From positions 1,809,138 to 1,873,137 of the forward strand of contig JAJEKV010000071.1 of NCBI GenBank assembly GCA_021234155.1: a stretch of DNA of 64,000 nucleotides, written 5' to 3'. The position numbers and the translations under genes were made by a program. Below the pieces are notes generated by a model. That model saw only the letters and a list, made by a program, of their open reading frames with translations, was not told where the DNA came from and ran no database searches. Every line of letters starts with the position of its first letter. Within the stretch, counting starts at the first letter, position 1. The stretch comes from Isoetes taiwanensis. Taxonomy: Eukaryota; Streptophyta; Lycopodiopsida; Isoetales; Isoetaceae. Shown here piece after piece: positions 19,320 to 39,060 of this stretch.

Positions 19320-19329
19320 CACTACTACA

Positions 19330-20143: not shown

Positions 20144-22255
20144 TTATAAGACATCGTATATATGCTCATCATTAGAATTTTCAGAGTGGTCATTCTCAGA
20201 TATTGCATCATCGTCACCGTCCTCATCATCATCATCCTCAACATCGTCATCATCATTATTATTGTCCTGGACAGCAGTAGAGCATTCACCTTGACGATGT
20301 AGTGCATTGTCAACAAGGGCCCTATCAAGTTCTCCAACAACATCCTAAAACATATTATAACAAGCATCCAAATATAAATGAGAAAACAAACTATACAAAG
20401 TTAAATTAAAAATATAATAGAACAAGTCAAATAAAAAGAATCACTCACCTTACCATTCGATGCTCTTGGCAAAGTACCATTAGCAATTAGCCTTCGAAAG
20501 AGCTCGGTAGCTCCAAATTCACCTGCCACTTTAATGTACTCATTTGTGGGTCGAAAGCCATATATTCTCTCCTATAGCGATATGACACGTAAGTTGAAGA
20601 GTAGGAACATAACTTTAATGACAATAAAATCTAAAAAAAAAGGAACCTACAAATCTATATATAAATGATGGTCTTCCACCAGAACCCAGGTGCGAGGGTT
20701 TACGAGTACTTCTTGTTGCTTCGGCCGTTCGTTGTGAATGCTTTTGCTGGATCCTTTGCTCGTTGCAATGCAATCTACAACCCATATAAGAAAATTAGTT
20801 GGTGATTGAGCCTTATAACAAACGAAAGCGTATTAAAGTATTTAATATACCTTGAAGTCGTTTGCACTTATATTCTCAGGTACAGGCACTTTTGACCAAT
20901 CAAGGAAGTTCTTTTTGTCCCTCTTTAGTTTCTTAATAATGTGTTTTCTTCATAAATAACAACAATTAGAATAAGCAATCTAAAATAAACAAGTATCAAA
21001 CTCATCAATAATATTTGCTTACCTTTTCCTCCTCAGATAACTACCCATCATGCGAGTTATAATTTTCCAATTGAAGTTTTTGTACTTTTTTTATAGCAGG
21101 AAATTCCCGACATAATGCCTCACGCACGTCTTCTATTTCTCGTTGGTTGTAACCTCCAGGCCACTCCCCATCTAGACTAAATATGTGAGAATTTTTTACA
21201 TCCACCAAATTGTATAACCTGTTGTAAAATAGATCGCCCCACGCATTCCTTTCTGGAATGTGTTCACTACAATAAAAAGAAAAAAGAGTGTATGAAAATG
21301 GAGATCTTCATCATCTAAACTTAGCAAAAGTTTTACACTTACAAAGAAAACCTAGGGCCTTCATCCGGTTTTTCTCGTGCATCTTGAACGACCACCTCTG
21401 ACTCATCTCGATCCTTTCGTTTCTTATGATGACTACGTGTGTCATTACCAACTCCAACATCTTAAGGTCATGCTCCACTTGATTTAGTCCTGCAAAGTAA
21501 GATATGATTAAAACATTCTTAAGAAGTGAATTGATGGCTTCCAACGATCTAAAATAGTGTGATTCAAATTAAAAAAGAAAATATAACCACCACAAAATTT
21601 ACAAAACCAAAAGAATCAAATTAATTGCATCAAAAGCATCTACTTGTCAAACAAGAGGTTTTTCAAGGTTCCTTGGTATATGCAAGTTCGTGCTTTTCCT
21701 CCTGCGCCTATCGCTTTCGTGCACGCTATTATCACTACCACGCCTTGAAGCGTCAGAACTTTCTTGTGGCATACTAGCCATAACATATGCCACTACTTGG
21801 CTAAGCATCTCAGCACTCAAACCGGCAATACAAGAAGGTGGTTGAGGTGGTTGATTGTCTTGAGGTGCTAATTGATTGCTTGGAGGTGGCCCTAAAATAT
21901 AATAATCCAGAATTAAAAACAAAAAGAAATGTCAGATTTTCATAAGCAATAACAAGAAATAAACAAGTGAAATTCATGGAATAAACTTGAGTTATGGTCA
22001 TCCACTACTCGATCATTGTTATGTGGAGGTGGTCTTCCCCCGCTACCACTGCCTCGTTGATTGCCTTGAGAATGTGGCTGCCCTGAAATGAATGTTAAAA
22101 GCCTTTAAGTAATGATAATAAATAAACAAGCCATTTGGGAGGAATTTATTGAATATACCTGGAGTGTGGTCACTCAACCGATCATTGTTTTGTGATAGCC
22201 CTCTATTCCTAGTCTTTCTATGGTCTAGACCACGAAAAACATTTTTAACAAACAT
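20144..22255 (-). CDS. TNPA-like / Transposase_24-type gene of the CACTA element
   Basis: This is a multi-exon minus-strand gene whose last exon (20344-20144) ends in TAA. Exon blocks read from 5' to 3': a Pro/Gln-rich part with AEMLSQVVAYVMASMPQES (21922-21647); SHHKKRKDRDESE and KPDEGPRFSL (21480-21340); FSLDGEWPGGYNQREIEDVR with a stop behind it (about 21250-21040); LDWSKVPVPENISANDFK (20935-20850); EQRIQQKHSQRTAEATRSTR and HLGSGGRPSF (20776-20650); FRPTNEYIKVAGEFGATELF (20572-20450); and a terminal run of Asn/Asp/Glu. The layout matches the second protein of CACTA elements, which binds subterminal repeats. Exon borders are partly guessed, and at least one stop (21048 area) suggests decay or an unseen splice. 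Confidence 0.55.
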
Positions 22256-22329: not shown

Positions 22330-25300
22330 AGGAAGGAAGGAAGGAAGGTATTTTTATCGTCCACGGAGACCAATCGGTCTATGGGACCCAATACAAAAAC
22401 GCAGCAAGCGGATTACTGCCCGGATTAAAAAACCCCCGCCCCGAAGGGTTTTCGAGGAAAAACCAGGGCAAAGAATCACCTGCCGACAAAACCGCCCTAA
22501 CATATAAAATGCCAAAACACCCAAATATATACAAATCATGCATCGCACCGTAGTGCCCAATCACGGCCCAAAGGGGGCAAAGGTGACCTCAGCAGTCCAA
22601 AGACTCCCGAATGTACGACCCTGTGGTGCGTGATCGACGGTGTTCATCAAGAAATGTAAGGGCAAGTCCTACCGCATTTGGGAGCCGTGATTTGGCCCGG
22701 ATCCGACCAACGGGCAACTCGAAAGTGTGAGACTCATCCTCAATGGCACCCATTTGACAAAGACCGGCAGAGAGCCCTGCCCCGGCAGGGCTCCCCAATC
22801 CACCGCCCGCCTCGATAAGATGGTGGGCACTGTATGTAATGGAGGCAATGAGTCTGGGCGCTTTTTAGGGGCACCGGGAACCCGTGTAGAGGTGTGGGCC
22901 CCGCTAACACGGGGTTGATGTGCTCCTTGTAATGGGCCGCTTTTGACCCGCTCTAGAGCCGGGGTCACAGAGCTTGCCAAGGAAGCAAGCTGCCTAGGTA
23001 CTCCCAAGCAGCCGTCATGATCGGCCGCCAGGTCCACCCGCGACGATCTGTGCTCCCCGCACGCTCCATCCGGGCGAACCATCGATCTCTTAGCCCTCCA
23101 ACAAAGCTCCCCGAGTCAGCCAAGGACCCATTGCCACAAGTAAGCAAAAAGGGAGCCGAAAGCATCACCCATAGTAACAGCCTTTGTGAAAAATAGACGA
23201 TGTGTCTATCAATAACGCCCACCGCTTTAAGAATCCGGGCCTCGCAGCTAGACCGATAGGGGACCGAGGGTTTCACCCCTGTGCCCGCAGGCTAAAATGC
23301 CTTCCGTGACCGCTCCAAGTCATTCCAGTCGCCAAAGAGATGACCGCCCCAACCTCACTTCGCATGTATGGCAACTGTGCCTCGACCAGCGTCTCAAAAC
23401 AGATGTGATCGATGGCCCCAATCATAGAGCTCACCGATGATCTTGTTCTCAGATGGCATAAAGCGCCGCCCACAATTGCCACACCCGCAAGCCGGATAGA
23501 CGCCCCCGCCAGAGCGAGGAGGGGAACTCCACCCCTAGGTACTCAGAGGGTGGGCGGACGCCCACAGGCCGCCCCCGATATGTGAGTGCAAAGCAGCATG
23601 GGGTGACGTGGAAGAGGATATGAGAACCACCCCGGGTCTGGGCGAGATTCACGCTGCATTTCAGAGCCCGACAAAATGTGTCTAGGGCATCCGTGTGAGA
23701 CCGAGATAGCGGGGGGTGGGCCAAAGAAAGCCAACATCGCCCGCGATAGATGAGCCGGGCGGATGACCCGGTGCAAAAGTTGTATGCCATCCCCCATGCT
23801 CAAGAAGCCGTGGCTCTAACCGATCAATGTAGAGGCCAAAAGTGTTGGTGAGAGGGGGGCACCCCCGCCGGACTCGATGCTACCGGGTGAATGCTTGGTC
23901 TGGCGCACGATCCCCGCCAAAACAACTCGATACAACTCAGATATGGCATTCTCGCGACTGTGCAATGGAGCCCCCATTGACGCTATCTAGCCCACGCCTT
24001 TTTCAGGGGAATCAGATCAAAGCCTTCGCTGAAGTCCACAAAGCAAAGAATACAAGTCCCGCCGATGATTCCTACTGTCTTCAATCGCCGCGAAGTAGTA
24101 AAGATATGGTCAATCGCTGAGTGACGGGTCCAAGCCCGCCTCGTGTGAGGGCTCGCGACATCGGCCGCCTGCCGCCTCGTGGGTCAACTGCTGCTCGAGA
24201 ATGCCGCCAACAGTTTGGCAAATACCGAACCGACCATGATCGTCCGGTAATTGGCCGGACAGTGTGGGTCGCCCGCCTTGTGAATGGGAACAACCCTGCT
24301 TATGGTCCATTGTCGGGGGAAACCTTCCTGCAATGCTCTGTTGAACAGGGTAGTGAGGACCGGCACAAGTGGCTGCCCTGCCCATTTGAGTAACTCGGCC
24401 TCAGCGAAAATTTTAGTGGCCCCGGCGGGCCATTTGGCCACAAATTACAGGTTCAGGCAAAATGTGACGGCCGGCTTGAGTAGGATGCCTTACCTATGGA
24501 CTACCTGCAGATTCGCCATTTCCTAGCACTTTATTGCCTATTATGACATTAGAATGGCCAATTAGATGTTTGCTAATTGGAGTGGTATCGACTTTGGGGC
24601 CAATTTAGTGCCAAGTGAGAACTAGATATGCTTATGGAATGGCCATTTAGTCCACTTGGCCAAATCCTGTTGCCTTAAGTTCGCCAAAGCTTAACTCATT
24701 AAGAGGCCCCTTCATAAATTCACTTATGGGGGGCTAACATTATTAGAGATTTTTATTCCTAAATATATCTACCAACTAAGAATAATCCCGCTCTTTTGGA
24801 AAATCAAATGTCAAGGCACTTTTCAATCCTCTTTACGAAGACTCCGGCATCCAATTTCTGATTCTTCCTACCAACAATACGTGCATTAGTGAAATATATG
24901 GGGTATGAATTCAAATTCATACAACATGTAACTTAAATACATTTATATAGGGTAGCGATTTCTTTATGTTTGGGCAACTAGCTCTATATTTAATAAGAAT
25001 TTAGCTAAAAATCGCCATTTGAGCTATACATTATTAGATAATTGGTTCAAAATTTGCCAATTGGGTTGCAGTCACATTAGAAAAGAATAGGAAAAATGGC
25101 CAGTTCAGGCTACACTTTTGGGGGCACATTTTACAAGGAATGGCCAATTCATTATACTTATACAAAATTATAGGTCCCTTAAAATTTTCCCTGCTCGGCC
25201 TGCATACCATCGAGGTCAGCTGCCTTCCCATTACCCAGCCGTTGCAGGCCGTCCACAACATCCTCCTCCACGAGAACCAATGGGGGGCCATCCGTGGGGG

Positions 25301-26715
25301 TATGGGCGACGCCCCTCGGTGGGTCATAGAGTCTTTGCAAAGTACTGTTCCCACTGCCTGGGTGTGATGTCCCCTGTAGGCTGGGCTGGCCTTCGAAGCA
25401 CTCTGCGCCAAAAGGTTCGAGGATGAGTGTCCAGCAGGCCGAACATCTCCCACTGATGCCTGGCAAGGTACCGTGCCTTTGTCTCCTTCCGGATGGGCAC
25501 GCGATGCGTGTGGTGGCCCCGCAAGCGGGTACTTGGATCCGTATGTGACGGAGCTGCCGCTATTCTTTACACCGCATCAAACCATCGGTTACGCTGAATG
25601 TTGCTGACCCCGGCGGCGGCGACGGGGAGGGGGTCCGCCAAAGCATGTCCATTTGCATCCCGTAATAGCGAAGTCACCGGTGCGTCTCACGATCTAGTGT
25701 GGAGGTCCGCAGAATTACCGGGAGGGCGCCCACGCAGCATCTCTGGCGTAGTCCTGCACCGCTCATAATCTAGTCTCAACCGAGGGGGCGAGGGGCCTGT
25801 CATAGTGGGGGTTCCGGGCGGCTTGCCAGCAGGTCCAAATAAAGTGGGAGGTGATCTCGAATCGACCTCCTCATCCCGACCGCCTCGTGCCCACCGGAAA
25901 CGACCGATGAGATGCATATCTTGCGCAACTACGGAGCACATAGTCCACCACACTAGACCCTCCCCCGATTGTCTCCGCTCGCACGCGCACTATGGTGAAT
26001 CAGGCCATCGCGGATGTGCCATTGCAAATTATGAAGTCAAAAATACCACATAGCGGGAGCAACCGGTCACAAAGCGGTGACGGGTGTCATCCGATCCTCG
26101 TGGGCCGTGTTGCTTCATGGGGCGAGCCGCAGGACATCGCCGAGGGGGTCAAGTCGCATGGGCTGCTCTACTCCCCGTCTGCATTGAAATCTCCAAGAAG
26201 GACGACCCTACCCAACCGGCCGGTGCCGCCAGATGTCATCATATAGATCGACATAAGGGTCCATCCTATCCGCAGACGGGGTGGCTGCGATAGAAGGTGC
26301 TCTCGCGTGAGGGAAATAACAGCGCCGTAAAAAGAGGGTTGCCACTGGTATTATGCACACGAACCCACAAGTACCGGTTGTGTGTCCGTCCGTTTCCTCG
26401 GAGGGTAACCGAATGTGCCAAGGTTGTCCGCAGTAGCAAGCCACTCCACCATGACCCCTCCGGCCCCGCATGTGTATTGAAGACCGAGAAATGTTGGTAA
26501 CCCCAGCAGAGGTAGCCTCGCTTGGCTCAAAGATGCTCCCATGTCTCCATGAGAAAGATGAGATCCATATCGGCTGCCACGGAGTTCAGACTGTCCCCCT
26601 TCTGCCAAGGGAAGCCTCGACAATTCCACGAGACCACCCGGAGGCACAATTCCTATTTGTCAGCAGGCATGGTATGCGCAGCCTGAGTCGCGGGGGGAGG
26701 ACGGGAAGCAGAGGC
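22330..26715 (-). mobile_element. LINE-A, longest copy (endonuclease to 3' end), with nested MITE
   Basis: Minus strand. An APE-type endonuclease start (VSWNCRGFPW, MDLIFLMETWEHL) lies near 26640-26520. A linker follows (about 25524-25330), then RT block 0-1 (LGNGKAADLDGMQAE near 25200; PANYRTIMVGSVFAKLLA near 24260) and the palm. The catalytic YADD is corrupted to an IAGD-like reading near 23740. A thumb (HTDALDTFCRALKCSVNLAQT, YLGVEF) and a Cys/His C-terminal part follow. The 3' end is the LINE-A terminus CCCATAGACCGATTGGTCTC followed by a (CCTT)n tail, seen on the plus strand as AAGG repeats at 22330-22348. The frame shifts many times. GC content is much higher than in the surrounding CACTA DNA. 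Confidence 0.8.
24402..25193. mobile_element. hAT-type MITE, 792 bp, inserted in LINE-A
   Basis: The termini are CAGCGAAAATTTTAGTGGCC at the left and, read inward, CAGGGAAAATTTTAAGGGAC at the right, which form ~20-bp terminal inverted repeats of the hAT type. A perfect 8-bp target duplication, CTCGGCCT, flanks the element (24394-24401 and 25194-25201). Removing the element and one duplicate restores the LINE frame (DGMQAE joined to LLKWAG). The interior is AT-rich, non-coding, and contains several ATGGCCAATT-like motifs near both ends. Confidence 0.92.
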
Positions 26716-26719
26716 TAGG

Positions 26720-29271: not shown

Positions 29272-30092
29272 GGAAGGAAGGAAGGAAGGAAGGAAGGTTC
29301 TTTTATCGTCCGCGGAGGCCAATCGGCCTATGGGACCCAAAATACACGGGTGCAGCAAGCCCGTTGCTACCCGGATTAAAAAACCCCCTTACGAGGGAAA
29401 AACCGTCGCAGCAACAAGCCTGCTGGCAGCTGTACAAATATACATATACGCATGAATTCCCGGCACCTCAGGTAGGCACGCGGGGACAGAGGTGAGTCCG
29501 TAGATCCAAAACCTCATGGAGGTAGGAGCCAAGGGATCGAACTGACGGCGTACTGAGTAGCTCGCGCAGTGGCAGACCAGGTCGCACCAAGAGGGCGTAG
29601 CGAGCCCGGATCTGCCTATAGGCTGGACAGCTTTGGAAGGCATGGCTTTCATCCTCAACAACCCCCAGGGGGCAACACTGACAAAGCCTGTCCTGGCGCG
29701 GCTCTCCAATCCACCGTCCCGTCTCAAGCCGAAGATGGTGGGCCCCTGTTCGAATGGACGCGATGATCCTGCGCTTCTTCATGGGCAACTGAGAATGCAG
29801 GTAGAGCTGTGGGCCTCGAACCAGGGTGGGGTTTATGTGCCGTTTGTAGTGTGCCATCTTTACCTGTTCCAGAGCATTGGGTCCCAGAGCTTCCCCAAGA
29901 AACAAGAGTCCAAGTACCCCCTCAGCCTATCCCAGCTGGCGTCTGTGTGCACATGGACGCACCTATGTGCCTCTACGTTCCAGCGCGCCAGCCACTGGGC
30001 TCTCTTGTCCTTCCAACAAGCCCTGAGTCGTTGCGGGCTCATCGCCACAGCGTAAGCCAAGTGCGGGAGCCGAGTGTCGCCCATGCTGGCAT
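29272..30092 (-). mobile_element. LINE-A, 5'-truncated copy
   Basis: The minus strand carries the C-terminal zinc-binding part (RTGAHHLRLETGRWIGEPRQ, RLCQCC, VEDESHAFQSCPAY) followed by the LINE-A 3' end CCCATAGGCCGATTGGCCTC and a tail seen as AAGG repeats on the plus strand (29271-29297). A 7-bp direct repeat GAGCTAA (29265-29271 and 30093-30099) fits a target duplication. Confidence 0.85.
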
Positions 30093-31009: not shown

Positions 31010-34000
31010 TGTGGTTCCGAATTCGCTTATGTGGCTCATCACTATCTTCCCCTAACTCATCCTCATGCAAAGTTGCTAACTCAAAACAATCAGAGGGTTC
31101 CTCATTCACACTCATGCTTTCTTCCACTATTGCTCCTTGGAAAATTCGACGAGCTCTTGGTGAGGTTTATATGACGAACCACCATGCCTTATCATTTCGA
31201 TCAGGAAAGAAGAAAACCTGCAAAAGCATTGTCATTTACATGATTATTTAAAAGCAAATTCAATGCTATTGATCAACCAACCTGTTCACAATTCTCTGGG
31301 AAAGCAAGTGTTTCAGGGCCACGATATAACTTGGTGGAGTTAATTGCAAGGAAGCCACTGATATCATTTCTCACAGTTGGCCTTGGACCTCTAAGTTGGA
31401 GATCAAACCAATCGACATCAGACACAATGGTCTTGAAGTCACAACCAACATCAACTTCCATGATTGGTTTTTAGTGTGCCAACCCAGTCAACTTCTGCTT
31501 GAACTCGATTACGGTCCGCTACACTTGATTGAAATTCCATCTCAAATGATACCATGACTCCACAATCACATGTTTTCCTATTTTTATCAACATTTTGTAC
31601 TCGATAGTGGGTACCATTCCCCCATATAGAGGAGTAAGATTGGAACTACAACACATGTAAGAAAGACAAAATAAGTAATTAATAATCAATTTCTCATTGA
31701 AAATAGATATTTAGATATAACTAGTTTTATGCATACCTTCTTTGCAACCCTTTGTGCATTGGACCATTCTATTGGAGTGACCAGCTCACCGTTATTGGTT
31801 GCATCATGCAATGCATTGCGTATCCAATCTTGTGTCATCTTATCTGGTAAGCATTCGTACTCATTTGGGAATGGGGCTCATCGATTTAGCTGTCTCCATG
31901 ATTTTCTCTTTTGCTCTCTTTCTTTCTTTGTATCCTCATATCGATCAATCCATTTCTCCATCTCCTTGTCATTGTAAAGCAAGAAACTATTAACTTTAGC
32001 TCGAGCTTCTGGAGTAAATACCTTTTCTATGGCTTTACCCTCAGTGAATTTCCCCACACTCTTCTCCTCTTCTTCATCTTTCCATAGTCGAGGAGCTCCT
32101 GGATGCAAGTCAATAATGAACTCTGTCATATAAAACAGAGACTCTCGTGCTAACCACCCTTCAGCCATGCAGCCCTCAGGATGTGCCATTTGACGCACCA
32201 TATCTTTCAAAACTTTCATGAACCTCTCAACAAAAAACATCCACCTTGCATGGACAGTCCCTGCAAGTTCAATCTCTTCCACGATATGCACCAAAAGATG
32301 AGGCTGGATATCTAGAAAACTTGTTGGGAATTCCTTCTCCAACAAGCAACATGCTTCAACCATCTTCACCTTCATCTCTTCTATCTCATGCTTTGGGATT
32401 TGTTTTTGTGAGATCCACCTGCAAAAAATTCAACGTTAGAAATAATTCACATAATTACAACATTATATAGTAAAAAATATACATATGTGTTCACCTTATA
32501 ACCTTTGATAGTGTACATATTGCTTCCAAAGGGCCTTTACTCAAAGAACCCCTAAAGGGCAATGGCATAAAAAACTACATTTTGAACATAACAAATGAAA
32601 TGTCAAATAGAAATACCACAAACAAATAAGAAATGGCACATGTCTACAACAAAGGAATGCTTACATGAAGAAGCTTGTGCCAATCATGAGACTTAAGACC
32701 TGTAAGATCTCCCGTGGATGAGAATGCACTGGACGAGAATGCACCGCGTAAGAAGTGCATGAAACCAGTTGGTGTTCGTAGGATCTTGATGTCACCAAGG
32801 ACACCCTTCTGCTCAACCTTACTAAGAACCCATTTTGCATTTGGGGCATAGTTATCTTTATTGATCCAGGCGTCCTTCTTTGTGTTTGTCAACTCGAGAT
32901 CCATCCTTGTATTTGTCGTGTCTTTTTCGCCAAATAAATGCTTCCACAAGGAATTTCCTACGTTCTTGAAAATATGCATTGGATCAAGAAGGTGTTGAAT
33001 CAAAAGACCATTCCAATATAGGAGTTCATAAAAAACTGATTTTCGTTTCATCCCATAAACTTCCTTTCCTTTTGCTTTATCCCAAAGCTCACCCCATTCT
33101 CGGATTGTCAATCTCTTTTTTTTTTTTTTTTTTTTTGGGGGAGATTTACTTTCTTCCAAGCCATTAAAATGCACACGATCCTTTCGAAGGGGATGTGTGA
33201 GTGGTAAATATTTCTGAAGACCCTTATACACCACCTTATTTAGATGTGGAGAATGACGAGATTCTAGGTTTTCTCCACAGATCATGCAAGCATCATGACC
33301 CGCCACACTAAATCCCGAGCACTCTGCTAGTCCAGGATAGTCATGCATAGTCCATAATAGGATACCTCGAAGTGTGAACGACTCATCTTTGTGTGCATCA
33401 TAAACATCAAATGCCCGTACTCCATAAGTTCAACAACTCATCCACCACAATCTTGAGGTACACATCTAAGTTCTTTGGTTTCTTCTTCCCGGGAATCAAT
33501 AAGGATAATATGCCCACTCTTCATTAGCAACCATGGAGGTATATTATAGTTTATTAGCAATACAGGCCATGTAGACCATGACGTGGACTGCTTTCCAAAA
33601 GGATTTACTCCATCGGAAGCCAACCCTAAGCGAACATTACGTGCTTCATTTCTAAATTGAGGCCATGTCTTGTCTACATGCTTCCATGCAGCACTATCAC
33701 TTGGAAGCCGCATGATGTCATCAATAGATGCATGTGTTGCTGTAAAGTCCATAAGACTAGCTAATGACTTGCATCGAAACATCAACTTCAACCTTGGAAG
33801 CAATGGGAAATGGCGTACCATTTTCTCAGGCACTTTCTTACCTTGCATATCATCTCTGTACCTAGAGGCATTGCACACCATGCAATGGGTAGTTTTGTGA
33901 TGTTCTTCAGGAGGATAAAAGATCATACAATCATTTCGACATGCATGAATACACTTGTAACCAAGACCAGTCGCTTGAATTATCTTCTTCACATCATCTC

Positions 34001-34520
34001 GGTGACTGGGTAAAGTATTCCCTTCTAGAAGGATTTTCTCGTGCAATAACCTATCAAGAAAATAAAAAGCAAACATGAATAATGTCATGGGTAAGATCAT
34101 AAATCTAAGATAATACTAAGCCCATAAACATTAAGTTATATACCTTAATAGATCGGATACACTTGTGTAGCTCCATTTGTACTTTGTTTGTAGATTCAAA
34201 ATTAATAAACTAGCAGACAACCTAGATGTTCGAGCGCCTGGAAATAGATGTGTCTCTGCCTCTACCACAATGGGTTCCTTATCATAATAGTCTCGTGCAA
34301 TTCCTTCATCACTAGCACCTTCCTCATACTCTCCAAATCAATATCGGGGGGAGGGGGAAGAGCCTCTAACATATCAATCATCGGCTCTTCAACACAAGAA
34401 TCAAAACGAGAGGGAGCATTTGTAGATAAAACTTGTTCTTGTCGTATTGCACTCTCTAGAGCTTTTCTGTGCTTGAGATTGAGAACCCGTGGATCAAGTC
34501 GAATATCCTACAAGAGGTGA
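31010..34520 (-). pseudogene. TNP2-type CACTA transposase, decayed
   Basis: Minus strand, multi-exon. The N-terminal part (34520-34160) contains DPRVLNLKHRKALESAIRQ. The TNP2 core (34053-33438) reads GLGYKCIHACRNDC, CMVCNASRY, FPLLPRLKLMF, RNVRLGLASDGVNPFG and STWPVLLINYNIPPWLLM. It continues in 33348-32644 (TMHDYPGLAECSGFSVAGHDA, LLDPMHIFKN, GLKSHDWHKLL). A DUF4218-like part follows at 32420-31878 (LLEKEFPTSFLDIQPHLLVH, RWMFFVERFMKVLK, PEGCMAEGW), then a DUF4216-like end (31640-31010; DVDWFDLQLRG). One-base frameshifts near 34340, 33490 and 33425 and a TGA at 31878, where the frame resumes APFPNEYECLPDKMTQDW, make it non-functional. A 20-nt T run at 33117-33136 encodes a Lys tract. Confidence 0.85.
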
Positions 34521-34651: not shown

Positions 34652-35871
34652 TTATGCACTTCTTCCAATTGGTGGAAGAGGCCTATCATACTCATAATTG
34701 ATGAACAACTCATCTCCAACTTCTATTGTTCGAATAGCATACACCATGATGAACCCCTTCTTTACATCTCTTGTAAAATATTCCTCCTTCCCTCCTTGAC
34801 ATTCTACAAATTGACAATTACATAGTACAAGATCATCAATTGAACTATTGATAAACCCTGCAATATTTCCATGGTGCAATGGACGACTATCAACGAATCT
34901 CAAATGAGTGTAATTGCCATCTTCCCTAACAGATTGTGCATTGGAATTCATTCCATAAATCCTCATGCGCCAAGCATGTTGTGACAATTTTTGCCATGTT
35001 TCCCAATCATATTCAGGGCTTGCATATGGCATTAGTGGAACAATAGTGCCTGGAGGGACATCTATCCGTGTAGCTGATATAAGCCCCAATCCTGCATTTG
35101 GACACTTACGACTACGCATTATTATATATCTCCTTCCCCAGTAACTAAACTCATTATCATACACAATGCAATGCTCCACAGGCCATAATCCAAAGGTCTT
35201 GCGCTCTTTATTGAAAGGACGAATTAAACGATGATGCTCTTTTGGAATATCTTCCTCTTCTAGCGATTCCAAATCTTCATAGGATAAATCTATGATACGA
35301 AGACTGTTTAGTGCTTTGGCTCTTCTAGTTCTATCACGTAGAGGAAGACTTCTAGCAGAAGAATGGCTGTGACAACCACTATTGATGAAGGAATTGGTTG
35401 CTCTAATATTATTTGCCTCTATAGATAACATCACGCCAAAATCCACACTTATTCTCGATGATACCTCATCATCTACCTACAAATTTATTTTTAATTTAAT
35501 AACCATAAAAGTAACTAAAATCATATGTAGAAACTAGAGTTTAAATAAGCACCTCATATCCAACACGAGCATATGATGTAGTTGGCGCTTCATATCTTCC
35601 CCACTTAATGAGATGATCGGTAACAATTGATCTGTAACACCTCTTTTAGCCCACACATCGTGTGCAATCACAAATGATCTTATCGGTCTAGTATCATGAG
35701 CAAAATCATTGTTCATTTGACTTAAATGAATATCTAAAATGCAATAACACATATTACCCCCAAAACAGGATGCTCATTCTCTGTCTCTCTTCTGCGCGCA
35801 ACATCCTCTATAATCTTCAAGGTACGCTCAACTCGACGATCAGGACGACTATGAGGAGCACTATGATCCAT
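34652..35871 (-). CDS. SET-domain protein gene carried by the CACTA element
   Basis: The proposed exons on the minus strand are 35871-35758, 35642-35553 and 35476-34652. GT-AG borders keep phase and give 342 residues without a stop. SET-like motifs are N-AGLGL (about residues 197-200), GNIAGFINSS (about 271-280) and GDELFINYEY (about 323-331) with VYAIRTIEVG before it. SET proteins are usually lysine methyltransferases acting on histones or other proteins. Here the usual NHSC core is N-S-S-I, so catalysis is uncertain. There is no pre-SET Cys cluster. The N terminus is Arg/Ser-rich and carries an acidic ESLEEEDIPKE segment. It lies directly upstream of, and collinear with, the TNP2 transposase and inside the TIRs. 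A transposase-SET fusion by splicing around the 34652 stop is possible but not supported. Confidence 0.72.
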
Positions 35872-35939: not shown

Positions 35940-36306
35940 CGGGATTTTATTTCCTTTTTAATCGTATCAAACGTCGCAAACGCGACGTTCCAATTGCGAG
36001 CGTGACGTCGCATGATCAACGTGGCACGTTTCCTATGCGACGCGTCACGTCTCTTGTGTGACGTGGCACGTATCAGCTGCGACGTGTCACGCCGCTAAAT
36101 TTCGCACGGTCACATTGCCACATCAGCTGCCACGTAGGATGCCATTGAGGCGTCTGATCCAGCGTTTCAGTAGCAACGTGGGACATCGCAAATGCGACGT
36201 CATTTGAATTTTGTGCGACATCATTAGAACATACGCGAATTTTGCGACGTAGACGTTTCAAATTCGTCGCAAACTGGCATCGCAAACAACCCATTCTCTA
36301 GTAGTG
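35940..36306. repeat. CACTA subterminal repeat region, right
   Basis: GCGACGT, ACGTCGC and GTGACGT-type motifs in both orientations run to the terminal TAGTAGTG. This mirrors the left subterminal array at 19330-19990. Confidence 0.75.
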
Positions 36307-36930: not shown

Positions 36931-37529
36931 CGGGTCCGATAGATGCGGTGGGTGTAGCTGATCCCGTTTAATAGATACTTGTTTCCATTCTTTTTGTTCA
37001 GGCGTTACGTCACCGGCTAATTTCTCGGACTCCTTTTACCCATTTCGATTGCCAGAATGTTTTTGCTTGATTAGGATAGAGCTTCAGAGTCCTTACCACA
37101 TTCTGATTATGGGAGATGGTGGCTTCACAGAGGGAGGCTGGTGATTTGGTTTCTGGCCACAAATTTCTTTCTAGGCTCGCGATCCGGAGAGTAGCACATC
37201 CAACTGCGCATTAGGGTAAGAGGTATTTTCTAATAAGATGAGCATTGCTGATGTCTGTTAGCCGATTTGAAGGGCATTGATAAAAGCCCTCAAAATCCAT
37301 AGATGAGCAAAGCATTTCTAAGAAATTCGGACCAACATAGCAGGTATTCCTTAGCTCTCCATAATCCAGACCTAAAAGATCAGATGTGAATATATTTGCA
37401 TGCAAGAAGACAGTAAAAGAAAAGTAGCACCATACCCAAATGCTAAGAGATGCGGCAACACAAGAACTGAAAACGTTATTGGGCCGACTAAGAACACTTG
37501 GATTTCAAAAGGATTATGCTTTATACGCA

Positions 37530-39060
37530 TTTATTTTGCAAAGAAGTCGGTGTTTCCACGAGCCCTAGTTGTGGGAAAGCTCGTTCATGGTCAGCTTTTG
37601 AAAAACATACATGAAAAAAATGTCTATTTGAGCAACTTAGTCATAGGCATGTACAGCAAGTGTGGTGCATTGAATTATGTAAATATGGTATTTGAGAACA
37701 TGCTTCAACCTAATGTATTTTCTTGGACAATTTTCTTTGTCAGATGTGTGCGGTGTGGGCAAGTGAAGAATGCACATAGACTATTTAATGCCATGCCCGA
37801 GAGGAACGTTGTTTCTGGACCACAATAATTGCAAAAGCATATGCAAAATATGATGAAGCTTTAGGGGTCTTTGAGCAAATGCTATTTAACGGTGAGAGTC
37901 CTAACATAGTTACAATGGTTCTTGTTCTTGGTGCATGTTCCGACTTGAAGGATCTCATAAGAGGCAAGATTGTACATGCATGAATTCTGTGATAGTAAAT
38001 TTAATTGTGAGGTCATAATTATGAATGCCCTTGTCTATATGTATGGGAAGTCCGGCAGTTTAAAAGATTCGAATCGCATTTCAAGTTGTGCTTGAGAGAA
38101 CTGTTGTTTCTTGGGCTACTATGATAAATGCATTACATTGAAAATGGGCATGTTGCTAAAGCTCTTCATCTTTTCCGGAGATGGAAATGCAGGATGCGTT
38201 CACGATCATGCTATATTCCTAAGCATTTTAAGCTCTTGCTATGGAGATAAATATTGTTGAAGCTAAGAGGATACCGCGACATTATTATAAAAGACAACTA
38301 GAGTCGGATCCCAAAGATTGGGACCACCCTTGTTGATATGTATGGAACATGGGGCCATCTTTCTAGTGCTCAAATAATTTTTAATGGCATAATCACAAGG
38401 GATGTTCTTTCTTGGACTGCTTTAATTAAAAGCATTCATGCACCATGGACATGGCAAGGAAGTACTCTCGATCTTCGTGAAATGGACATTGAGGGTTTGG
38501 TTCCCGATAAGGTAATACTTACAACTATTCTTGCATGTGCCAATGAAGCTTCATTAACCGAAGGCAAGAGAGTACATGATCTTGTAATTGAAACATCTTC
38601 GTCCGATATCGATGCAGCATTGCACTTGTCAACATGTACAATAGTTGCGGAATTGTGGAAACCGCAAGGATAATCTTTGATCGATGTTTGAGGAAAGATG
38701 TGATTTCATGGAATTCTATGCTTGCGGCGTATTCTCAAAGATGGGAATTCTAAGGAAGTATTCGGGCTCTTCCATTTTATGGTTATGGATGGTATATGGC
38801 CAAGCCAAGGAACTTTCACTAGCATTCTTTTCGTATGTGGCCATGCAGGACTCTTTGGATAAGGAAAGTCATTACTTTTCTTATGCGAATGATTCTTGTA
38901 TCACACCATGTAGGGGAGCAATACCACTGCATGATTGATCTCTTCTCGCGTCTTGGATGGTTGGATGAAGCGAAAAGTATAATAGGTAACATGCCATTTC
39001 AAGCCAATGTTGTTTCATGGACAACATTGCTTGAAGGTTGCAAAAGCAACTTGTAGTACT
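37530..39060 (+). pseudogene. PPR-protein pseudogene
   Basis: Pentatricopeptide-repeat motifs are spread over three frames: LVIGMYSKCGALNYVNMVFE, QPNVFSWT, RCGQVKNAHRLFNAMPERNV, YDEALGVFEQML, a MYGTWGHLSSAQIIFN unit with RDVLSWTALI, then MIDLFSRLGWLDEAKSIIGN and VVSWTTLLEGC at the end. Such proteins edit or process organelle RNAs. At least five frameshifts or stops separate the pieces and no E/DYW tail follows. This is a dead member of a large family. Confidence 0.85.

Follow-up and report, generated by a model that had tools for sequence, protein, structure and literature searches.

The window, that is, the whole 64,000-nucleotide stretch of Isoetes taiwanensis DNA that was analysed (on contig C1080; genome searched, 1.66 Gb), contains a CACTA (EnSpm) element on the minus strand, with its 5' end at 36306 and its 3' end at 19320. 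A SET-domain exon lies within it and is followed on the same strand by a TNP2 transposase gene that is broken across several frames. The features are listed below from the 5' end to the 3' end of the element.

36291..36306, minus strand: 5' terminal repeat, CACTACTAGAGAATGG, with subterminal repeats of the TTTGCGACG type then down to about 35970
35758..35871, minus strand: exon 1, 38 aa, beginning with the ATG at 35871 and followed by the donor GT at 35757; SET-less copies have a related exon ahead of TNP2
35553..35687, minus strand: exon 2 of 45 aa (CxCxxC...DHLIKWG), which resembles the C-terminal half of Transpos_assoc; in the window a premature stop lies at 35646-35648
34652..35476, minus strand: SET exon, 274 aa and a stop codon, open in the window copy; Pfam SET, 31.4 bits (cut-off 22.4)
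34144..34507, minus strand: first TNP2-specific exon (DIRLDPRVLN...), phase-0 acceptor before 34507; boundaries read from the sequence
33438..34100, minus strand: TNP2, first part of Transposase_21 (Pfam match)
32644..33348, minus strand: TNP2, last part of Transposase_21 (Pfam match)
31878..32375, minus strand: DUF4218, C-terminal part of TNP2 (Pfam match)
21041..21931, minus strand: open stretches, a possible second (TNPA-like) element gene near the 3' end, conserved in the siblings on C1045 and C963
19320..19347, minus strand: 3' terminal repeat, CACTACTACAGAAGAGGCC when read inward on the plus strand, located by genome pattern matches and target duplications

In the preliminary description of this locus, a SET-domain frame with the motifs GLGL, GNIAGFIN and GDELFINYEY was placed inside CACTA termini, upstream of TNP2 and in the same orientation. 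All of this was confirmed: the three motifs are found in the exon that matches the Pfam SET model, both element ends enclose it, and the downstream gene matched PF02992 with 106.4 and 51.2 bits (cut-off 28.6) and DUF4218 with 88.7 bits. The stop codon of the SET exon is separated from the TNP2 exon by 144 bp in the window, and in the window copy, L002, L012, c701 and c941 the SET exon is closed by a stop codon ahead of TNP2.

The upstream part of the gene model was corrected. A conserved exon of 45-51 aa with the pattern CxCxxC...H was detected in 36 of the 45 sequences examined. It lies before the SET exon or, where a copy has no SET, before the TNP2 exon, and it was preceded by AG in 31/36 and followed by GT in 31/36 (the sequence examined for C957, C889 and C1032 starts too late to include it). 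In the window this exon occupies 35553-35687, and the acceptor proposed earlier for intron 1 at 35643/35642 was therefore replaced. That acceptor had skipped the in-frame stop codon at 35646-35648, a position that is open in five siblings (L003, L004, L006, L007 and L019). Because of this premature stop, the window gene is broken and not intact as had been described. The best Pfam match of exon 2 in three subfamilies was Transpos_assoc (PF13963), the second half of the model being covered. For this half-domain exon the scores were 25.2, 21.9 and 15.4 bits against a cut-off of 27.7, with E values of 2e-4 and 2e-5 in sibling copies of subfamilies 1 and 2 and 0.02 in the third subfamily; the 11 genome matches above the Transpos_assoc cut-off were all at places other than exon 2. 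TNP2 proteins usually start with Transpos_assoc.

The borders of the element were established by comparison of copies. The extended 5'-end pattern had 21 matches in the genome versus 0 in the reversed control, and the bases flanking the 5' end varied from copy to copy. The 3' pattern had 9 genome matches (up to 1 mismatch), eight of which lay downstream of a SET copy in the correct orientation. Both flanks were examined in six SET copies, and perfect 3-bp target duplications were present in four (C1045, ATA; C963, CAA; C1064, TAC; C1059, AAT) and absent in two, namely, the window copy (CTG/TTC) and C996 (GTG/AGG). Since both ends recur around SET copies and are accompanied by target duplications, it may be concluded that the SET exon moves inside the element. 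Terminal repeats starting with CACTA and ending with TAGTG are present in the window and in subfamily 1, the two ends being similar and not identical. The ninth match of the 3' pattern is the end of a gene-free, SET-less derivative of 328 bp (L041, C1026:9106405-9106732), which is MITE-like and non-autonomous; the terminal repeats at its two ends are those of the window's CACTA family, and its flanks show no matching target duplication.

The window element is interrupted by 22345-26716, at a place where the sequence is contiguous in C1045, and by 29274-30089, at a place where it is contiguous in C963; these stretches are perhaps nested LINE pieces. A weak match to a reverse-transcriptase zinc finger was seen at 29468-29926 (13.5 bits, below the cut-off). 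In C1045 and C963 the A-rich stretch of the element is followed by other sequence and, farther on, by the 3' repeat, so the assumption that these two copies lack a 3' end was rejected. No family scored above its cut-off for the open pieces at 21041-21931, for which a weak match to DUF7020 lay below the cut-off. Immediately beyond the element's 5' end, at 37400-38940 on the plus strand, frames were noticed by eye that resemble pieces of pentatricopeptide-repeat proteins.

The occurrence of the SET exon in the genome was studied. When the exon was used as a protein query, at least 146 matches with 41-100% identity were found; this number is a lower bound, 145 of 1794 first-look candidates having been scored. 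All of these matches had E values of 3e-44 or better except the last row (4e-4), which is a short piece, and a chance origin of the SET match is excluded. A second search with the distant member C1032 as the query gave at least 153 matches from 150 of 1269 candidates scored, with about 25 of the listed rows common to the first search. Subfamilies were defined by identity to the window: subfamily 1 (approximately 73-100%), subfamily 2 (approximately 62%) and subfamily 3 (approximately 48%), with C889 and C1032 forming subfamily 4 and C957 and C1093 forming subfamily 5. The SET exon is thus present in at least five subfamilies; the Pfam SET scores were 29.5 bits in subfamily 3, 22.6 in subfamily 4 and 21.7, just below the cut-off of 22.4, in subfamily 5.

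The subfamilies were also distinguished by their ends. The 5' ends of subfamily 1 are CACTACTAGAGAATGG, as in the window. The ends of subfamily 2 are CACAACAAGAGAATGG, with 564 genome matches (up to 2 mismatches) versus 0 in the reversed control. In the 100 of these 564 ends that were listed, CACAA replaces the usual CACTA. Comparison of the SET rows with these 100 ends placed a CACAA-type end within 20 kb of at least 15 of 59 SET rows (contigs up to C1019), in all 15 cases upstream and on the same strand. Two copies of subfamily 3 become similar no more than 2 bp from a CACTACAAGGGAT end on the 5' side. It had been proposed that other CACTA copies be searched for a SET gene at the same place, and many such copies were found. 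The SET exon is an old and standard component of a CACTA (EnSpm) lineage and not the result of a one-off capture.

The order of the two genes was examined at 148 TNP2 loci, which represent the best 150 of 173 matches. Among the matches listed, a scored SET exon lay upstream, on the same strand and within 8 kb at a minimum of 58 of the 148 loci. The median gap between SET and TNP2 was 772 bp, and 54 of these 58 gaps were between 400 and 1300 bp. At one of the 59 loci where TNP2 had a scored SET close by, the SET was inverted, and no scored SET was near the other 89 of the 148 loci, again among the matches listed. The sequence was inspected at 12 loci without a scored SET. The exon was present at seven of these (C957, C889, C1032, C1018, C263, C909 and, in part, C1073) and was absent from the stretch inspected at five (C942, C1034, C1031, C1044 and C82). 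The assumption that TNP2 lineages of 52% identity or less lack the SET exon, which came from 0/19 rows with a scored SET, was therefore wrong, since C957, C889 and C1032 carry it.

The copies on C942 and C1034 (L083 and L084), with TNP2 88% and 87% identical to that of the window, lack SET: in them, exons 1 and 2 are separated from the TNP2 exon by a short intron. Because such relatives exist, SET is not indispensable, and these two copies provide a natural SET-less control within the same genome. For the copies of subfamilies 1, 2 and 3 that were inspected at these junctions, the donor of exon 2, the acceptor of SET and the acceptor of TNP2 are all in phase 0. Upstream of the subfamily-1 TNP2 exon (L002) there is a stop codon, with no ATG between it and the start of the exon; in subfamily 3, an ATG lies near the TNP2 acceptor.

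Selection on the SET exon was estimated from the longest open stretches of 19 copies. The median dN/dS was 0.26 between subfamilies 1 and 2 (60 pairs) and 0.20 between subfamilies 1 and 3 (18 pairs, dS near saturation); between subfamilies 2 and 3, dS was saturated in 30/30 pairs. Within subfamilies, the values were 0.40 (subfamily 1), 0.96 (subfamily 2) and 0.33 (subfamily 3). The value within the recent burst of subfamily 2 is what would be expected of dead copies. A dN/dS near 1 had been named beforehand as evidence against a functional SET gene; such a value was found within this burst and not between subfamilies 1 and 2. In the query-anchored comparison, SET gave 0.25 for subfamilies 1 and 2 (one pair, 0.25, bootstrap 0.17-0.36), 0.20 for 1 and 3, 0.61 for 1 and 4 (5/8 pairs with finite dS), 0.33 for 3 and 4 (5/6 finite) and 0.09 for the pair C889-C1032. 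The corresponding values for TNP2 were 0.07 (1 and 2), 0.15 (1 and 3), 0.20 (1 and 4) and 0.28 (3 and 4). The SET exon is constrained, less so than the transposase, and the deepest dN/dS values are unreliable.

The distances of SET and TNP2 at 21 loci were correlated (Mantel r 0.76, a value reached in 0 of 5000 permutations), and both trees, that of SET and that of TNP2, showed the main groups. Therefore, the SET exon most likely predates the split of the subfamilies and was inherited along with the transposase, as far as these sequence comparisons indicate. In the preliminary description, the open SET frame beside a damaged transposase was taken as a hint of separate constraint or later acquisition. 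Co-inheritance across subfamilies contradicts a later acquisition, and separate constraint was not supported. It was borne out that SET belongs to the CACTA element itself, recurs at the same place in many copies and was maintained by selection between subfamilies. In a small tree, as had been suggested for comparison with host proteins, the transposon SET exons formed one group separate from the seven host SET exons compared.

The motifs of the SET domain were considered with regard to possible catalysis. The canonical NHSCxPN was not found in the transposon copies, which have FINSSI...NC or INSC...NC, whereas 5/7 of the host SETs compared have INHSC. The asparagine of this motif was kept in nearly all transposon copies, and GxG and the ELxxxY tyrosine were kept across transposon and host SETs. 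Catalysis is uncertain because the usual NHSC histidine is missing, and changes at this histidine inactivate well-studied SET enzymes. PR-type SET domains lack NHSC and can be active; an active enzyme is therefore possible to judge from the motifs. AlphaFold2 models of the protein were of low confidence (pLDDT 36 and 40). A Foldseek search with the pLDDT-40 model returned SET proteins (ATXR5, MLL1, SET7/9 and SETD2) among the top rows with E values of 0.57 and worse, which carry little weight. Sequence searches of the PDB yielded nothing reliable, and when the SET alignment was used to scan viral contigs, no relative was confirmed among 316 pattern matches.

The position of the SET exon, its recurrence, its co-inheritance with TNP2, the purifying selection between subfamilies and the compatible phases were observed directly, and they are the starting point for a model that we consider rather probable. 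According to this model, the SET exon lies in an intron of the transposase gene, between the Transpos_assoc-like zinc-finger exon and the TNP2 exons. From one promoter, exons 1 and 2 would be common to two products: splicing would join them to the SET exon, which a stop codon closes, or would skip that exon and join them to TNP2. The two resulting proteins, a finger-SET and a finger-transposase, would have an identical DNA-binding start. The finger would bring the SET protein to the subterminal repeats of its own element, where SET would alter histones (or the transposase), and the likeliest purpose would be to keep the element transcribable against host silencing. Given the layout of the SET-less copies C942 and C1034 and the phase-0 junctions, it is simplest to regard exons 1 and 2 as transposase exons and SET as an alternative end in the next intron; SET and TNP2 look like alternative exons behind one common start. 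A comparable scheme is found in maize En/Spm, where one transcription unit gives rise by alternative splicing to TNPA and TNPD, a DNA-binding protein and a transposase. En/Spm has no SET domain, and for the present element the common-exon scheme is predicted from the sequence. Plants silence transposons by histone and DNA methylation and, given this, an anti-silencing role is the most likely one, self-restraint or a dead scaffold being less so. Nothing in the data indicates which protein is methylated or favours activation over repression.

The layout could also be read as two adjoining genes with separate promoters, in which exons 1 and 2 belong to SET, TNP2 starts from an internal ATG or its own first exon, and SET still serves the element. 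The stop codon of SET, 144 bp before the TNP2 exon in the window, and the ATG near the TNP2 acceptor in subfamily 3 agree with such an arrangement. However, exons 1 and 2 run straight into TNP2, in phase, in the SET-less copies, a stop codon but no ATG directly precedes the subfamily-1 TNP2 exon of L002, and an unsystematic look revealed no second Transpos_assoc-like exon beside TNP2; two genes are thus unlikely. Passive capture of a host SET fragment in the Pack-CACTA style, with no role for the exon, would be in keeping with the frequent uptake of host gene pieces by CACTA elements, with the many broken copies and with the dN/dS of 0.96 within subfamily 2. It is already contradicted by the same place and orientation of the exon in at least five subfamilies, the dN/dS of 0.26 for subfamily 1 versus subfamily 2, the correlation of SET with TNP2 distances and the grouping of the transposon SETs apart from the seven host exons, and we regard it as extremely improbable.

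Two further explanations are compatible with the layout of alternative exons and concern the role of the SET protein. The exon may encode a catalytically dead scaffold whose fold is kept as a binding surface, e.g., for the transposase or host chromatin proteins. The changed NHSC histidine in the aligned transposon copies, a kind of change that inactivates well-studied SET enzymes, speaks for a scaffold; the constraint on the exon, the retained GxG, ELxxxY tyrosine and (nearly always) asparagine, and the activity of PR-type domains without NHSC speak against it, and this explanation is possible though doubtful. Alternatively, SET could restrain the element by placing repressive marks on its own copies and so limit copy number and host damage. 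This fits the general idea of self-regulated DNA transposons, the writers of H3K9 and H3K27 marks belong to the SET enzymes, and the data do not favour activation over repression. On the other hand, by reasoning, an element that solely represses itself gains less than one that escapes silencing. Moreover, the SET-less group (TNP2 identity of 85-88%) comprised only 7 rows among the matches listed, four of which were inspected (0/4 with SET in the stretch examined); therefore, SET appears to have been lost without visible expansion. Self-restraint is accordingly considered improbable.

The hundreds of related cut-and-paste transposons with an old, conserved SET exon beside or inside the transposase gene suggest a chromatin-modifying protein that is directed to the element's own DNA. 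If the preferred model of two products from one gene is true, a transposon lineage has long carried a self-encoded, sequence-targeted chromatin modifier, which would make it possible to test directly if transposons use an enzyme of the host's kind to combat or adjust silencing.

VANDAL elements belong to the MuDR superfamily, and their protein is unrelated and has no SET domain. The VANDAL anti-silencing proteins of Arabidopsis (mentioned in PMC12730594) provide a parallel, since there too a DNA transposon of a plant brings along an epigenetic regulator that is sequence-specific; the present element differs from VANDAL in its CACTA superfamily and its SET domain. The uptake of SET histone methyltransferase genes by the DNA transposons HarbingerS and MuDR of Phytophthora was reported by Kojima and Jurka 2014 (as summarized in PMC12730594). 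These share with the present family the presence of a SET gene on a DNA transposon, but they belong to other superfamilies and to another kingdom. Here, the transposase is TNP2 and not the PIF/Harbinger transposase that defines HarbingerS, the ends are of the CACTA type, and the SET exon is apparently situated within the transposase gene, after a start that resembles Transpos_assoc. In fungi, EnSpm and other transposons carry TET/JBP dioxygenases as stable cargo, which the author reads as anti-silencing (passages of PMC12730594). In both the fungal EnSpm elements and the present family, a transposon of the CACTA type stably carries an epigenetic enzyme; TET/JBP enzymes act on DNA methylation, whereas SET acts, if at all, on protein lysines. 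In the primate SETMAR, a SET domain is combined with transposon DNA binding (PMC9062482). The likeness to SETMAR drawn in the preliminary description does not hold in the strict sense: SETMAR is one host gene encoding one polypeptide, whereas here SET belongs to a mobile multicopy family and, with the exon ended by its own stop, does not form one chain with the transposase. No report of a plant CACTA element with SET was found in full-text searches of open-licence PMC, as judged from titles, abstracts and counts, a search that covered few subscription papers and no Repbase report. Within that literature, the arrangement is known in concept and may be new in its host group, superfamily and gene layout.

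A single open frame of 831 codons was noticed at C1042:13841681-13844173 on the plus strand (L095:82-2574), in which a host-like N-terminal part is joined to a SET domain of subfamily 4. No TNP2 was found near it in the stretches examined, to approximately 6.4 kb downstream. The frame is a candidate SETMAR-like host gene, Treslin-like::SET, putatively built from the SET exon of the transposon, and it illustrates how such exons might be turned into host genes. Taken as a whole, it is conceivable, and tentatively proposed, that a large plant CACTA lineage encodes in one transcription unit a transposase and a SET methyltransferase with the same transposon-binding start, that the methyltransferase marks the chromatin of its own element and so evades or tunes host silencing, that this arrangement is older than the subfamilies, and that a host gene was built from SET at least once. 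The N-terminal part of the C1042 frame itself had no Pfam name; its sister on C1033 matched Treslin_N with 29.0 bits (cut-off 26.5), and the sister on C907 had no match. The SET part scored 22.4 bits, just at the cut-off. The dN/dS was 0.38 (0.30-0.48) for the N-terminal part versus C907 and 0.15 (0-0.27), at a dS of 1.8, for the SET part versus C1032.
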